A stretch of 64,000 nucleotides of DNA from contig NZ_CP084058.1 in the NCBI RefSeq assembly GCF_020215645.1, positions 8,680,001 through 8,744,000 on the forward strand, read 5' to 3'. The position numbers and the translations under genes were made by a program. How positions within the stretch are numbered: the first letter of the stretch is position 1; every line of letters starts with the position of its first letter. The stretch is from Nonomuraea gerenzanensis. Its GTDB lineage: Bacteria > Actinomycetota > Actinomycetes > Streptosporangiales > Streptosporangiaceae. The notes below the pieces were generated by a model. The model had not been told where the DNA came from. It worked only from the letters and a program-made list of their open reading frames with translations, and searched no databases. Below are positions 11,721 to 19,202 of this stretch, one piece after another.

Positions 11721-12110
11721 ATGCCCATGCTCCGCCGTACCGGCGTCCTGCTCCTCACCGCCACCCTGGTGGCGGCGGGCGGCGCCCCGGCCGCACAGGC
11801 GCAGAGCTCCCAGACCAGGAACAAAGCCATCGCCAAGGCCATGGTGGCCGCGCGCGGCTGGGACAACGCGCAGTTCAGATGCCTGGTGAAGCTCTGGCAC
11901 CGCGAGAGCGGATGGAACCACCGCGCCGGCAACGGCTCCGGCGCCTACGGCATCCCGCAGGCGCTGCCCGGCCACAAGATGGCCACGTCAGGACGTGACT
12001 GGCGGACCAACCCCCGCACCCAGATCAGGTGGGGGCTCGGTTACATCAAGCAGCGGTACGGTACGCCGTGTCGCGCCTGGGGGCACTTCCAATCCCACGG
12101 TTGGTACTGA
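11721..12110 (+). CDS. Secreted lytic-transglycosylase-like protein (first paralogue)
   Basis: A 129-residue exported protein with a signal peptide ending near AQAQ (about residue 28). The mature domain has CLVKLWHRESGWNHRA, GSGAYGIPQALPGHKM and TQIRWGLGYIKQRYGTPC, ending in Trp-Tyr. This is the small lysozyme/transglycosylase-like fold seen in actinobacterial cell-wall proteins. The glutamate in HRESGW is the likely catalytic acid, and two cysteines may form a disulfide. AAAGGGAA seven bases upstream supports ATG 11721. A paralogue follows in the same direction after 337 bases. Probable role: peptidoglycan remodelling outside the cell. Confidence 0.82.
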   Translation: MPMLRRTGVLLLTATLVAAGGAPAAQAQSSQTRNKAIAKAMVAARGWDNAQFRCLVKLWHRESGWNHRAGNGSGAYGIPQALPGHKMATSGRDWRTNPRTQIRWGLGYIKQRYGTPCRAWGHFQSHGWY

Positions 12111-12447: not shown

Positions 12448-12927
12448 TTGGACAGCAAACGCGTACTCAGCGGCACGCTCGTCTCCATCACCGCGTTCAC
12501 CGCACTGAGCGCCGCACTCAGCACCACAGCCAGCGCAAGGGCGGCATCGCCCGACTCCAAACAGCCGATCAGGACCGGGATCTGGACCACGTCGGCGCAA
12601 CCGAAGATGGCGGCCGTCAGGCCCGCCAGCAGGAACAAGAAGATCGCCCTGGACCACGTCGTGCAGCGGGCCTGGAACTTCCAGGAGTTCCGCTGCCTGG
12701 ACAACCTGTGGACCAGGGAGAGCAACTGGAACCACCGGGCGCTCAACCACTCCTCCGGCGCGTACGGCATCCCGCAGGCCCTTCCGGCAGGCAAGATGAG
12801 CGGCGCAGGCCGGGACTGGAAGTCCAACCCGGAGACCCAGATCCGCTGGGGTCTGGCCTACATCAAGGGGAGGTACGGCAGGCCTTGCGGCGCCTGGGGG
12901 CACTGGAAATCACACAACTGGTACTAG
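12448..12927 (+). CDS. Secreted lytic-transglycosylase-like protein (second paralogue)
   Basis: A 159-residue paralogue of the preceding secreted protein, with the same core: CLDNLWTRESNWNHRA, SSGAYGIPQALPAGKM, TQIRWGLAYIKGRYGRPC and a terminal Trp-Tyr. The N-terminus has a signal peptide ending near SARA, then about 30 extra residues before the domain. TTG 12448 is the only reasonable start, with AAGGA a few bases upstream. The weak start codon and long folded leader suggest tight post-transcriptional control. Likely peptidoglycan cleavage at the cell surface. The two copies probably arose by tandem duplication and may act at different growth stages. Confidence 0.82.
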   Translation: MDSKRVLSGTLVSITAFTALSAALSTTASARAASPDSKQPIRTGIWTTSAQPKMAAVRPASRNKKIALDHVVQRAWNFQEFRCLDNLWTRESNWNHRALNHSSGAYGIPQALPAGKMSGAGRDWKSNPETQIRWGLAYIKGRYGRPCGAWGHWKSHNWY

Positions 12928-13689: not shown

Positions 13690-14805
13690 ATGTCGACCCA
13701 CGATCTCTACACCATCCCCGCCGGGCTCTCCACGTGGAACGTCGAGATGGCCGGCGTGAGCCGTTTCACCTGGGAGTACGACGACGGCCGCGACCGCATG
13801 CTGGCCCTCTACCAGAAGGGCAAGGACAAGCAGTGGGACTCGGCCAAGCGCATCGACTGGGACCTGGAGGTGGACCCGTACGACGTGCTCGGCGTCCCTG
13901 ACCAGACCATCGCCATCCACGGCACCCCGCTCTGGGAGCGGATGAGCCCCAAGACGCGCAACGACGTCCGGTTGCACGGCGCGGCCTGGCAGTTCTCCCA
14001 GTTCCTGCACGGCGAGCAGGGCGCGATGATCTGCTCGGCCAAGATCGTGGAGTCGGTGCCCGACCTGGACTCCAAGTTCTACGCCGCCACCCAGACCATG
14101 GACGAGGCCCGCCACGCCGAGACCTACGCCCGCTTCCTCCAGGAGAAGGTGGGCCTGGCCTACCCGATCAACGAGCACCTCAAGTCGCTGCTCGACAGCA
14201 CGCTGAGCGACTCCCGCTGGGACATGCCCTACCTTGGCATGCAGGTGCTCATCGAGGGGCTGGCGCTGGCGGCGTTCGGCGTGATGCGTGACATCACCAC
14301 CAAGCCGCTGCCCAAGCAGATCCTGTCGTACGTGATGCAGGACGAGGCCAGGCACGTCGCCTTCGGCCGGATGGCGCTGCGCGACTACTACCGCGGCCTG
14401 TCGGAGGCCGAGCTGCGCGAGCGCGAGGACTTCGTCATCGAGGGCTGCTACCTCATGCGCGACCGGCTGCGCGGCAGGGAGACGTGGGAGTACCTGGGCC
14501 TGTCGAAGGCCGAGGTGGAGGAGGCCATGGAGGCGACCGACCGCTCCGACTACCTGCGGGCGTTCCGGTCGCTGCTGTTCAGCCGGATCGTGCCGTGCGT
14601 CAAGGACATCGGGCTGTGGAGCCCGCGGCTGCGGCAGGCGTACGCGGAGATGGGCGTGCTGGAGATGGCGGGGCAGTCGCTGGACGCGCTGATGCGGCAG
14701 GACGAGGAGATCGCCGACCGGATCGACGCGGAGCGCTTCGCCGCGGAGGAGGCGTCGCGGCACGCCGAGGTGGCCGACACCATCGCGCTCGGCGCCGACT
14801 CCTAG
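13690..14805 (+). CDS. Ferritin-like diiron protein
   Basis: A 371-residue all-helical protein with two diiron-type repeats: a glutamate in FLHGEQGAM, then DEARHAETYARFL, and later a glutamate in VLIEGLAL with DEARHVAFGRMAL. This EX2H pattern belongs to the ferritin-like superfamily (ribonucleotide reductase small subunit, fatty-acid desaturase and AurF-like oxygenases). It may oxidise or desaturate an organic substrate. ATG 13690 with GGAGG at 13681 sets the start, so the longer frame from 13615 is not used. It is divergent from a TetR gene that probably controls it. No ferredoxin or reductase partner is adjacent. Confidence 0.82.
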   Translation: MSTHDLYTIPAGLSTWNVEMAGVSRFTWEYDDGRDRMLALYQKGKDKQWDSAKRIDWDLEVDPYDVLGVPDQTIAIHGTPLWERMSPKTRNDVRLHGAAWQFSQFLHGEQGAMICSAKIVESVPDLDSKFYAATQTMDEARHAETYARFLQEKVGLAYPINEHLKSLLDSTLSDSRWDMPYLGMQVLIEGLALAAFGVMRDITTKPLPKQILSYVMQDEARHVAFGRMALRDYYRGLSEAELREREDFVIEGCYLMRDRLRGRETWEYLGLSKAEVEEAMEATDRSDYLRAFRSLLFSRIVPCVKDIGLWSPRLRQAYAEMGVLEMAGQSLDALMRQDEEIADRIDAERFAAEEASRHAEVADTIALGADS

Positions 14806-14889
14806 GCCGGCGAAGCCGTACCGGGCGCGGGCGGGGATCCCGTGGTGGCGGGCCAGGGGCAGGCAGAGGACGGTGAAGAAGCCGGGCAT
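14806..14889 (-). pseudogene. Remnant of a transglutaminase-like gene
   Basis: Between the diiron and NACHT genes, the minus strand encodes 28 residues containing FFTVLCLPLARHHGIPARAR followed by YGFAG. This closely resembles the core of transglutaminase-like cysteine-protease-fold proteins, where the pattern is hxxLLRxxGIPARARxGFA. Nothing else of that family is present, and the frame runs into the diiron gene antisense. I read it as a decayed leftover that marks an old deletion or insertion boundary. Chance resemblance is possible for so short a piece. Confidence 0.35.
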
Positions 14890-14948
14890 GCCCGCCGGTG
14901 TGTGTAACGGGGCCCGCGCTTCCGCTCGTTTTCGGCAGACTTGAGTGC

Positions 14949-17900
14949 GTGCGGCAGATCATCACCTATCGCGACGCCGTCGCCCTGCTGGGCGGGCCGA
15001 CCGCCGTCTCGGGCGTCCTGGACAAGGCCTCGTCCCTGGTGCTGTTCGGGGTGGGCGGGATCGACCTCTTCGACGCCCGCGCCGAGGCCGTGCGGCTGGG
15101 GGACGCGTTCCTGCGCGGGCTGCGCGCCAAGGTCAAGGGCCTGAGCAGGTACGACACGACGCAGCGGCTGACGGCGGCGCACGCGGTCATCGTGGTCACC
15201 GCCTTCCTCGACGCGCTGGGCGAGGTGGACGTGCTGCGCGAGCTCACCCCGGAGGACCAGCGCCGGATCACCGGGACGGAGGGCCTCGGGGGCCGGCTCG
15301 CCGGCCTGCAGGCGCCGATGCCGGGCCCCGCCCTGCCGTTCGAGCGGCTGCTCGACGAGCTGAGGGGCCACTACGAGGCGCAGACCCGCCTGCTGGTCGC
15401 CTTCCTGGCGGGGCTGCGCCGCTGGGACACCTGGGACGAGACCACCCGGGCCCGGCTGGCCGAGGGACTCCCCGCGCGGGCGGTCCGCCGCTACGAGGAG
15501 CTGTTCCACCGGCTGGTCGCGGACTTCCCCGAAGTGGCCTCCTGGTCCGACCGGGTCGATCACCAGGCCACCAGGAACGAGATCAAGAGCCTGGCCGACG
15601 GGCTGGCCGGGGTCTGGGACCAGGTCGCCAGGATGCCCGCGGCCCGTACCCCGTCCGACCGGCTGGCGGCGCTGGTGCGGGCGAACAGGGCCACGCTCAG
15701 GCGCCCGATCGTGAGCGCCCCGCGCACGCCGAACGGCGTGATCCCGCCGCTGGAGGAGGGCTACGTCAGCCCGGCCTACCGCCTGCTCGTGTCGGCCTGG
15801 CGCCACCTGGTCACCTCGGACGACGTCTGGGACAAGCTGCCCTGTCACAGCAACCTGGACACCTTCCTGGCCGGTCATCTCACGCTGCCGCAGGCCACCG
15901 AGTCGCCCCTGCTGGTGCTCGGCCAGCCGGGCGCGGGCAAGTCCGTGCTGACGCGGGTGCTCGCGGCCCGGCTGCCCGCCTCCGAGTTCCTGCCGCTCAG
16001 GGTCGAGTTGCGCGGCGTGCCCGCCGACGGCGCCGTGCTCGCCCAGATCGAGCACGGCATCAGGGCCGCGCTGGACGAGCCGATGTCCTGGCCGGAGTTC
16101 GCGGCCGGCACCGGCGGCGCGCTCCCCGTCGTCATGCTGGACGGCTTCGACGAGCTGCTCCAGGCGACCGGCGTGAACCAGACCGACTACCTGGAGCGGG
16201 TCGCGCGGTTCCAGCGCGACCAGGCGGAGAAGGGCCGGCCGCTGGCCGTCGTCGTCACCTCCAGGACCGCCGTCGCGGACCGGGCCCGCCTGCCGGACAA
16301 GACGTTCGTCATCCGGCTGGAGCCCTTCGACGACCACCGGATCCGCCGGTGGATCACCAGCTGGAACCGCAGCAACGACGGCTACTTCCGTGAACGCGGG
16401 CTGGCGCCCCTGCCCGTGGACAAGGTGCTGGCCGTCCGCAAGATGGCCGAGCAGCCCCTGCTGCTGCTCATGCTGGCGCTCTACGACGCCGACGCCAACG
16501 CCCTGCGCGACCTGCCCGAGGACCTGCACGAGGCCGAGCTGTACGAGCGGCTGCTGCACGACTTCGCCGTGCGGGAGGTGGGCAAGACCCGTCCCGGCCT
16601 GGCGGAGGAGGACCTGGCGCGGGCCGTGGAGGACGAGCTGCTGCACCTGTCGATCACGGCGTTCGCGATGTTCAACCGGGGCCTGCAGTGGATCGCCGAG
16701 CCCGACCTGGACGCCGACCTGCGAGCGCTGCTGCCCCAGGAGACGCAGCAGTCGGAGGGGTTCCGCCGGGCCGTGAGCCGGGCGGAGGGCGTCATCGGCG
16801 GCTTCTTCTTCGTCCACACCTCCCAGGCCCTGCGCGACGAGCAGCGGCTCAAGACCTACGAGTTCCTGCACGCCACCTTCGGCGAGTACCTGGTGGCCCG
16901 CCTGCTCGTCAGGGAGCTGGCCGACACGGCCGGGGACCTGGCCTCCGCCGTGTCCCGCCGCCGCCCCGTCCGGCCGGACGACGCCTATCTGCGCGCGCTG
17001 CTGTCGTTCGCGGCGCTCACCGTCCGCGCCCCCGTCGTGGACTTCCTCCGGCACGGCCTGCGCCGTACGGTCCCGCACGGGGAGCGCCTGCTGCTGAGGA
17101 GGCATCTGTGCGAGCTGTTCTCCGAGTCGCTCCTGGCCAGGCCGGGCTCCCCCTACGACGCCTACCAGCCGGTACGGGCGGAGCTGACGGCCCTGTGCGC
17201 CGTCCACAGCGCCAACCTGCTGCTGCTCGCCGTGCTGGCGGCGGACGAGCCGCTCGCGGGCACGGAGCTGTTCCGCGTCGAGCAGCCGGAGCACGCGAAC
17301 GAGCGGTGGCGCAGGATCGCCCGCCTCTGGCACTCCCAGCTCGGCAGGGCCGAGTGGGACTCGCTCATCCATACGCTCCGGGTCCGGCACTCCCTGCAGG
17401 GCGAGACCAGGACGTTCCAGGTCGCCTTCGACCGGGACCCACTCTTCGACTCCCGCGACCTGGTCTTCTTCACCTGGCCAGGCAGCCCCACCGTGAACCC
17501 CGCCAGGTTGCGGGCCGGTGACCTGATCTGGATGCGTGAGATCTCCTTCCGCGACGACACCACGCTCGGCCACCTCTTCGCGAACCTGCTCCCCTACCTG
17601 ACGGAGATCGACACGGACCTGTCCGCCCATCCGCGCAGCCCCGTCGCGGACCTGCTGGCGGTCCTGCTGAGCGAGCGGCCCGAGCCGGAGCTCTTCCGCC
17701 GCGCCCTGGAGGGGGCGCCGAGCCGGGCGTACCTGGAACGGGTGCTCGGACAGCTCGAACAGCACGCGCCCCTGATGCCGGGTGACGAGGTGCTGTCCCT
17801 GGTGGAGACGGCCGGCGGCGATCGGGTCACCCGGATACTCCGCGGCCTGGCGCGACGCCCGGACGTGGATGGTGACAAGGTGGCGGCGCTACTGGCACGG

Positions 17901-17993
17901 CAGGGTGAGGACCATCCGGGTCCGCGGCCCCTCGCCGATCGTCAGATCCCCTCCGTGCGCCCTGGCGATGTCCCTAGCGATCGGCAGCCCTAG
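14949..17993 (+). CDS. NACHT domain STAND NTPase (NLR-like)
   Basis: A 1014-residue protein with an N-terminal helical region of about 290 residues, beginning ITYRDAVALLGGPTAVSG, followed by a NACHT module. Walker A is GQPGAGKS (Lys331), Walker B is VVMLDGFDEL (Asp398, Asp401, Glu402), and the sensor-like VVTSRTAV comes after it. The next about 250 residues form a winged-helix/helical region (YEFLHATFGEYLVARLL is the typical NACHT-distal block), and the C-terminus is a helical sensor-like domain. Bacterial NACHT proteins include antiphage defence switches and regulators. The N-terminus looks like the actinobacterial NNH7-type helical domain, by memory only. GTG 14949 aligns with that family start. 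The 3' end overlaps the kinase gene by 105 bases. Confidence 0.85.
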   Translation: MRQIITYRDAVALLGGPTAVSGVLDKASSLVLFGVGGIDLFDARAEAVRLGDAFLRGLRAKVKGLSRYDTTQRLTAAHAVIVVTAFLDALGEVDVLRELTPEDQRRITGTEGLGGRLAGLQAPMPGPALPFERLLDELRGHYEAQTRLLVAFLAGLRRWDTWDETTRARLAEGLPARAVRRYEELFHRLVADFPEVASWSDRVDHQATRNEIKSLADGLAGVWDQVARMPAARTPSDRLAALVRANRATLRRPIVSAPRTPNGVIPPLEEGYVSPAYRLLVSAWRHLVTSDDVWDKLPCHSNLDTFLAGHLTLPQATESPLLVLGQPGAGKSVLTRVLAARLPASEFLPLRVELRGVPADGAVLAQIEHGIRAALDEPMSWPEFAAGTGGALPVVMLDGFDELLQATGVNQTDYLERVARFQRDQAEKGRPLAVVVTSRTAVADRARLPDKTFVIRLEPFDDHRIRRWITSWNRSNDGYFRERGLAPLPVDKVLAVRKMAEQPLLLLMLALYDADANALRDLPEDLHEAELYERLLHDFAVREVGKTRPGLAEEDLARAVEDELLHLSITAFAMFNRGLQWIAEPDLDADLRALLPQETQQSEGFRRAVSRAEGVIGGFFFVHTSQALRDEQRLKTYEFLHATFGEYLVARLLVRELADTAGDLASAVSRRRPVRPDDAYLRALLSFAALTVRAPVVDFLRHGLRRTVPHGERLLLRRHLCELFSESLLARPGSPYDAYQPVRAELTALCAVHSANLLLLAVLAADEPLAGTELFRVEQPEHANERWRRIARLWHSQLGRAEWDSLIHTLRVRHSLQGETRTFQVAFDRDPLFDSRDLVFFTWPGSPTVNPARLRAGDLIWMREISFRDDTTLGHLFANLLPYLTEIDTDLSAHPRSPVADLLAVLLSERPEPELFRRALEGAPSRAYLERVLGQLEQHAPLMPGDEVLSLVETAGGDRVTRILRGLARRPDVDGDKVAALLARQGEDHPGPRPLADRQIPSVRPGDVPSDRQP

Positions 17994-19202
17994 CCCGGTG
18001 CCTCCGGTGTCGCGCGAGCGCGTGCGGTCCAGCCGGGTGAACCGCTCGAACACCAGGTCCCGCTTCTCCTCGGGGATCCCCGGCCCGTCGTCGGCCACCT
18101 CCAGCACGGCCTGGTCCTCCGCCCGCCACACCGACACCCACACCGCCGTGTTCCCGTACCGGTCGGCGTTGGACAGCAGGTTCGTCAGGATCCTGGCGAG
18201 CCGCAGCCTGCTGCCCTCCACGCACACCCCCGGCTCCACGTCCAGCGTCACCGGCAGCCGGGCGGCCCGCCTGGCCACCTCCTGCTCCACCAGCTGCCCC
18301 AGATCGATCCGGTCCGTGCCGATCTCCACGCCCGCGTCGAGGCGGGCCATCAGCAGCAGATCCCCGACGATGTCCGACAGCCGCTGGGCGTCGTCCATGG
18401 CCGCCCGCCAGTCCGCCTCCGTCCGCTCGTCGATCCCGGCCTCCAGCCGTACCAGCAGCCCCGCGATGGGTGAGCGCAGCTCGTGCGAGGCGTCGGAGAC
18501 GAACCGGCGGTGCCGTTCGACGGCGTCCTCCAGCCGCTGCAGCGTGTCGTTCACCGTCTCGGCGAGCCCGGCCACCTCGTCCCCGCTGCAGGGCACCTCG
18601 ACCCGCCGGCTGAGGTCCTCGGCGTTGATGCGTTCCAGGCCCAGGCGGATCCGTTCCACGGGAGCCAGCACCCGGCCGACCCCGAACCAGGCGGCCCAGC
18701 CCAGCAGCGCCACCAGCGTGGCGGCGGACCCGTACAGGACGGCGGGCAGGAAGGTCGAGTGCAGCAGGAACGGCTCGCGCACGGCGGCGTAGGCCACGAC
18801 GGGCCCGTAGGCGGTGGCGCGGTTGCTGGTGCCGACCACGACCATGCAGCCCCACGGCCGGCACACCCGGTCGCTGACGCGTGAGTCGCCGCCGGTGGGG
18901 CGGGCGGAGGTGAGCGGCGGCCGGCCGGTGAGGGGGGCGCTGGCCGCCACGACCTGGCCGTTGGCGTCCACGACCTGGAGCATGCTGACGTTGTCCTGGG
19001 GCGGGATGGACCCGGCGAAGCGTTGCCTGTCGACCAGCGTGGTGATCCGGCGGCTGGCCTCGTCGGCCTGCTCCACGAGCTCGGCCCTGGCCCGCACCGG
19101 GTACATGGCCGAGATCGCCGTCACCCCGCCCATGATGACGATGCCGAACGAGACCACCGTCGCGATCGTCGCCCGGGCCCTGATGGAGCGGCCGTGCACC
19201 AT
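17889..19202 (-). CDS. Two-component sensor histidine kinase (orphan)
   Basis: A 437-residue membrane kinase. Two transmembrane segments (about 12-34 and 151-175) flank an extracellular sensor loop with two cysteines (114 and 119). A HAMP region follows, then the dimerisation and phosphoacceptor helix with His240 (DASHELRSPIAGLL), and an ATPase domain with NLLSNADRYG, VADDGPGIP and GGTGLGLPIAR. No response regulator gene lies next to it. The reading frame ends 105 bases inside the convergent NACHT gene, which is an unusually long overlap. The signal sensed is unknown. Confidence 0.9.
   Translation of the reverse strand: MVHGRSIRARATIATVVSFGIVIMGGVTAISAMYPVRARAELVEQADEASRRITTLVDRQRFAGSIPPQDNVSMLQVVDANGQVVAASAPLTGRPPLTSARPTGGDSRVSDRVCRPWGCMVVVGTSNRATAYGPVVAYAAVREPFLLHSTFLPAVLYGSAATLVALLGWAAWFGVGRVLAPVERIRLGLERINAEDLSRRVEVPCSGDEVAGLAETVNDTLQRLEDAVERHRRFVSDASHELRSPIAGLLVRLEAGIDERTEADWRAAMDDAQRLSDIVGDLLLMARLDAGVEIGTDRIDLGQLVEQEVARRAARLPVTLDVEPGVCVEGSRLRLARILTNLLSNADRYGNTAVWVSVWRAEDQAVLEVADDGPGIPEEKRDLVFERFTRLDRTRSRDTGGTGLGLPIARDIARAHGGDLTIGEGPRTRMVLTLPCQ

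Follow-up and report, generated by a model that had tools for sequence, protein, structure and literature searches.

The gene at 14949-17993 (+) of the window, by which we mean the whole 64,000-nucleotide stretch of Nonomuraea gerenzanensis DNA analyzed here, is intact and encodes a protein of 1014 amino acids followed by a stop codon. Its sequence moderately favors a self-contained, NLR-like immune switch (STAND, NACHT clade), built from an N-terminal NNH7 domain, a NACHT ATPase core, and a fast-diverging C-terminal part that we presume to be the sensor.

Domain organization of the NNH7-NACHT protein

The complete gene runs from a GTG start at 14949 to a stop codon at 17991-17993, with a second in-frame GTG upstream at 14898. 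Because the antisense frame over it is also open for 987 codons (14802-17765, -), an open frame alone is poor evidence in such GC-rich DNA; it is the Pfam match and the conservation at the protein level that settle the question and confirm the plus-strand frame as the real gene. Its 3' end overlaps convergently with that of the adjacent histidine kinase gene over 105 bp (17889-17993). Wherever an orthologous locus has retained the kinase (nine of 12), the matched stretches overlap likewise, by 45-99 bp, and the residues encoded within it in the window, 988-1014, have a pLDDT under 50 in the structural model, with the exception of one residue.

The N-terminal residues 4-203 (14958-15557, +) belong to the Pfam family NNH7 (PF22738), with a score of 193.9 bits against a curated cut-off of 27 bits, and form helices in both structural models, giving a predicted all-helical domain. 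The original prediction had described an uncharacterized N-terminal helical domain and proposed its comparison with the Pfam NNH families; the helical character is borne out, whereas "uncharacterized" must be amended, in that the domain has a named family. Structure comparison of the predicted model returned no confident match of NNH7 to a solved fold. Judged from its position alone, NNH7 is the putative output domain. Within it, residues 20-44 (15006-15080, +) are partly hydrophobic and poorly modeled (pLDDT under 50 at 19-44), and residues 27-52 are well conserved in the nearest homologues (mean entropy 0.46 over the first 34 rows of alignment A1). We considered a membrane-helix output and set it aside: the best 19-residue hydropathy within the first 80 residues is 1.37 (median of 79 sequences, 1.35; 20 of the 79 reach 1.6), which makes no convincing transmembrane segment.

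The NACHT clade of STAND NTPases is recognized by a P-loop and by a Walker B motif in which a Mg-binding aspartate and a small residue precede an acidic pair. Both are seen here, as GQPGAGKS at residues 325-332 (Walker A with Lys331; 15921-15944, +) and DGFDE at residues 398-402 (Walker B with D398, D401, and E402; 16140-16154, +). Across 120 aligned sequences, P327, G328, G330, the entire D398-E402 stretch, and Arg439 of the TSRT motif (16263-16265, +), which we take to be the sensor-1-like position, are invariant; K331 is among the positions conserved at 90% or more in the same alignment and is invariant in alignment A3 (44 of 44). Translation and alignment thus agree with the earlier statement that the NACHT core is intact, with the positions of Lys331 and Asp398/Asp401/Glu402 correctly given. 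The general Pfam NACHT model (PF05729) scores only 13.3 bits against a cut-off of 26.7, and AAA_16, with 24.8 bits, is also under its cut-off. As only 18 of the 44 relatives scanned match PF05729 at E 0.001, we read the low score as the limited sensitivity of one model rather than loss of the motif; the NACHT assignment accordingly rests on the motifs, the relatives, and the predicted fold. PF05729 matches 21 places in the whole genome G000 at E 0.001, 16 of them above the cut-off, with scores computed for 150 of 468 initial candidates, and the NNH7-NACHT gene of the window is not among them.

In the predicted model (pLDDT 84.8), residues 235-767 (15651-17249, +), comprising the NACHT core and the helical and winged-helix region that follows, resemble NLRC4, NOD2, and NLRP3, with the ATPase, helical, and winged-helix parts in the NLR-like order; the Foldseek TM-scores for these matches, normalized by query length, reach only 0.17-0.28. 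The structure comparison proposed earlier therefore leads to an NLR-like fold, and the long helical regions predicted on either side of the core are present in the model. A sequence search of PDB chains at E 0.1 returned no match. Nothing seen here pointed to either of the outcomes that had been named as counting against an immune role, namely membership of a housekeeping NTPase clade or an N-terminus of known non-immune type. The absence of a recognizable nuclease or protease effector also holds up: Pfam, PADLOC, and NCBIfam reveal no enzyme in the protein, with only two weak PADLOC matches (E 0.007) and only weak NCBIfam matches (E 0.007 or worse).

The protein might instead be a developmental or metabolic regulator of the STAND type, comparable to MalT/SWACOS-type STAND proteins, rather than an immune sensor. 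MalT/SWACOS-type regulators carry a DNA-binding domain within the same protein, and Pfam, which lists 10 families up to E 1, shows none here. Bacterial STAND proteins have been studied chiefly in the role of transcription regulators (PMC7159879), which lends the regulator some credit. Taken together with the genomic evidence below, we regard this alternative as unlikely, though as the likeliest of the rivals.

The third part of the protein, residues 828-1014 (17430-17990, +), is among the fastest-changing by segment identity and is the presumed sensor. In four close pairs it is 49-71% identical, against 78-87% for residues 301-480; in three of these pairs it has the lowest identity of the six segments compared, whereas in the remaining pair the minimum falls at residues 204-300. 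Residues 105-156 of NNH7 are approximately as variable as the C-terminal part (entropy 1.95 over the nearest 34 sequences). The segment identities and entropies thus place variable regions at both ends of the protein and a conserved one in the ATPase. Matches to paralogues mostly end near residue 800-850, and beyond the Nonomuraea orthologues most matches end near residue 800-900. In one homologue, P0115, residues 1054-1140 form a cyclic-nucleotide-binding domain where the sensor would lie. From the rate, the paralogues that cease to match before this part, and the P0115 domain, we infer that the C-terminal part probably senses.

Relatives and the chromosomal site

A total of 1953 homologues were recovered at E 0.001 or better among 7988 candidates scored. 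All 120 of those listed carry PF22738, as do all 44 relatives in alignment A3, and the names given at source are mostly "NACHT domain-containing protein", "NACHT N-terminal Helical domain", or "hypothetical protein". The named sources include Nonomuraea, Microtetraspora, Actinomadura, Streptomyces, Phytohabitans, and Amycolatopsis. The homologues are from actinomycetes, many of them filamentous and developing, a distribution that would also suit a regulator. Among GTDB species genomes, a relative is encoded in 505 of 554 pattern stretches, and the 79 loci kept are all titled as actinomycetes, mostly of filamentous genera (78 of them, L144 being left out, form alignment A2 together with the window). 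In a phylum-level sample PF22738 occurs in three of 198 genomes, the N. gerenzanensis genome included, and this even draw may under-sample rich families. The N. gerenzanensis genome encodes three NNH7 proteins; a second paralogue (L055, 8325-10718) is 39% identical to the window protein and may be more widely kept, because matches of 38-40% are found in many of the 54 genus genomes. Carriage by mobile elements was considered and rejected: phage records hold no relative at E 1e-5, none of the 89 pattern stretches in viral contigs was confirmed as a relative, and the plasmid collection yields four records at E 1e-20. Three of these are Streptomyces plasmids (38-42% identity), and the fourth, the best match at 99.9%, is a chromosome-sized N. 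gerenzanensis record of 11.85 Mb labeled as a plasmid.

Of the 54 Nonomuraea genomes, 49 encode a relative of some kind and 12, the window's own included, an orthologue, defined by identity of 57% or more over most of the length; the full-length versions are 57-79% identical, and 42 genomes are without one. All 12 orthologues lie at one site, between TetR/AurF-like and histidine kinase/deaminase genes. We surveyed this site in 51 of the 54 genomes (12 carriers and 39 non-carriers; G013, G024, and G026, with no TetR match at 1e-40, were left out). In 13 non-carriers it is cleanly empty, with the flanking genes adjacent and about 16-114 bp between the matched ends; in another (G042) two short remnants persist, corresponding to residues 8-101 and 784-906; and in 25 of the 51 genomes the retrieved stretch shows it rearranged or does not resolve it. 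The history of this fixed site, occupied in some relatives, vacant in others, and reduced to a remnant in one, is what the present analysis adds, with no claim to priority. Eleven of the 12 orthologues lack a stop in the matched stretch, the exception (G050) having a single TAG, and in two others (G039 and G003) the match ends at residues 925 and 977, respectively. In a tree of four neighbor proteins from 49 genomes, nine carriers form one clade with a support of 100 and three are scattered; the deep nodes are weak, so that a number of gains or losses cannot be claimed. The many genomes lacking an orthologue and the 13 clean empty sites argue against a regulator of development or metabolism, to which the location among ordinary genes is more congenial.

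That location also matches the original prediction that the gene stands alone rather than in a marked defense island: its neighbors are ordinary, with no defense genes beside it. The PADLOC matches among them to mad3, mad8, and AriA come from two ABC transporters and are taken as ABC-ATPase cross-matches; a hydrolase accounts for one further weak match. Across the orthologous loci of the genus, the histidine kinase is present at nine of 12 and the AurF-like gene at seven of 12. The AurF-like N-oxygenase gene (13690-14805), missing at five carrying loci, is 87-96% identical in the genus wherever it has a full-length match. The kinase gene (17889-19202; HAMP, HisKA, and HATPase_c), absent from three loci, has the deaminase gene directly upstream and no response regulator there. 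Two small proteins similar to SLT-like transglycosylases are encoded at 11721-12110 and 12448-12927; they are 58% identical over 125 alignment positions, and the second falls just under the Pfam cut-off. For 66 of the 79 loci (nine Nonomuraea orthologues and four loci on short contigs being left out), we clustered the ORFs lying up to about 6 kb away, and no partner gene family emerged as tied to NNH7. The largest cluster covers 17 of the 66 loci with mixed strands and distances, and the second (15 loci) was discarded as a partner since it lies inside the NNH7-NACHT gene on the opposite strand, an artefact of GC-rich DNA. As no tied partner gene was found, the output would be NNH7 itself or a factor encoded elsewhere.

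Divergence, selection, and tree discordance

Over 55 pairs from 11 carriers, the NNH7-NACHT protein diverges at a median of 2.80 times the rate of seven neighbor proteins (2.20-8.03), a reference set that excludes the adjacent histidine kinase; the rate and tree tests use 11 of the 12 orthologues, G003 being below a 55% identity filter. It is the fastest of nine proteins measured. Its data reject the neighbor tree (AU p 2e-5 and, in the control analysis, 4e-5), and the reverse rejection is also observed; several nodes of the NNH7-NACHT tree are weak (25-68). The controls show the same tendency elsewhere at the locus. The histidine kinase has a ratio of 2.33 (1.56-4.28) and rejects the neighbor tree (AU p 3e-4; nine genomes), compared with 3.00 and AU p 1.4e-4 for the NNH7-NACHT protein in the same nine genomes. 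For the other seven neighbors the median ratios range from 0.73 to 1.81, and ABC2, the deaminase, glutathione peroxidase, and the second SLT-like protein each reject, at 0.05, the tree built from the remaining six. Fast, discordant evolution is therefore not specific to the NNH7-NACHT gene: the pattern is suggestive, but allele exchange was set aside as a demonstration of immune function, the kinase being just as discordant and four of the seven neighbors discordant too. The controls slightly lowered our confidence both in the immune switch and in the self/non-self conjecture given below. With discordance so common here, the replacement of whole stretches including the kinase is as likely as that of the NNH7-NACHT gene alone. 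That the adjacent kinase evolves in the same manner is a further point for the regulator.

The presence of strongly divergent versions at one fixed locus, exemplified by G049, which is 65.7% identical to the window protein and 95.0% identical in the seven neighbor proteins, might also be expected of a receptor for allorecognition or kin discrimination, which would halt growth or kill when non-kin mycelium is touched or fused with. Fungal NACHT incompatibility proteins provide an analogue (PMC7159879). However, diversification driven by phages yields the same pattern, the discordance is not gene-specific, and ORF clustering around the loci showed no cognate contact-partner gene; we hold this explanation to be very improbable. 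A broader conjecture is given slightly less credence still: mycelial bacteria would keep, at this fixed chromosomal address, a polymorphic locus for telling self from non-self, with lineages exchanging its versions and NNH7 as a new enzyme-free helical output domain.

A different possibility is that constraint has been relaxed and loss is frequent, such that the divergence carries no functional message. The remnant in G042 and the empty sites are in keeping with this, as is a whole-gene dN/dS by the Nei-Gojobori method of 0.45-0.63, against 0.08-0.36 for the neighbors. In dS, the NNH7-NACHT gene is on a par with or above the kinase and deaminase genes and exceeds the other neighbors. Yet the Walker B motif is invariant in all 120 aligned sequences and all but one of the orthologues are free of stops in the matched stretch, and we judge relaxed constraint to be quite unlikely, though not as improbable as allorecognition. 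The YN00 estimate for one pair is 0.09. As the whole-gene dN/dS is below 1, positive selection cannot be claimed; a single segment of a single pair exceeds this value (residues 204-300 versus G036, 1.67 over 96 codons).

Proposed mechanism and comparison with known systems

In the general logic of bNACHT and other STAND proteins (PMC12169576, PMC7159879, PMC8195603), sensing falls to the C-terminal part, switching and assembly to the NACHT module, and action to the N-terminal part. Applied to the immune switch favored here, the C-terminal part would bind an invader-derived or invader-disturbed component, whereupon the NACHT protein might open in an ATP-dependent manner and assemble into a ring or disc. 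The NNH7 domains clustered in this way could constitute the output, whether through membrane damage or by drawing in a host factor whose gene lies elsewhere, and growth of the infected compartment would finally cease or the compartment would die. The role of the protein is probably that of a phage alarm. NNH7-NACHT proteins are widespread in actinomycetes, yet our literature searches on NNH7, and on NACHT with Streptomyces, found no account of NNH7 function. The filled, empty, and remnant states of the site, together with versions that are 57-79% identical, offer handy natural material for dissecting which region detects which signal, and what follows when an NLR-like bacterial protein with no recognized enzyme fires.

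Bacterial NACHT proteins are described in PMC12169576 as tripartite, with a C-terminal sensor, and as defending against phages; the same source credits clade-14 members with antiphage activity despite having no readily discernible effector domain. The window protein resembles bNACHT02 and bNACHT12 of that clade in this last respect, a likeness rather than a clade placement: those proteins have a short C-terminal SNaCT domain, whereas the window protein has an N-terminal NNH7 domain and a long C-terminal part. With the clade-6 defense proteins bNACHT25 and bNACHT32 it shares the tripartite NACHT organization, but these carry an N-terminal PD-(D/E)XK nuclease and NCH1 (PMC12169576), neither of which Pfam finds in the window protein. 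The likeness to animal NLRC4, NOD2, and NLRP3 lies in the predicted fold of residues 235-767 and does not extend to a PDB-chain sequence match or to Pfam matches with other NLR parts. Avs3 (AVAST), an antiphage STAND ATPase, is matched by the protein model with a Foldseek E of 2.2e-4; its chain, however, has 2028 residues, and Avs3 carries a nuclease effector. The public NNH7-NACHT proteins of Nonomuraea, Streptomyces, Actinomadura, and others are of the same family as the window protein. The type is already known and common in actinomycetes, and the gene described here is a further member of it.
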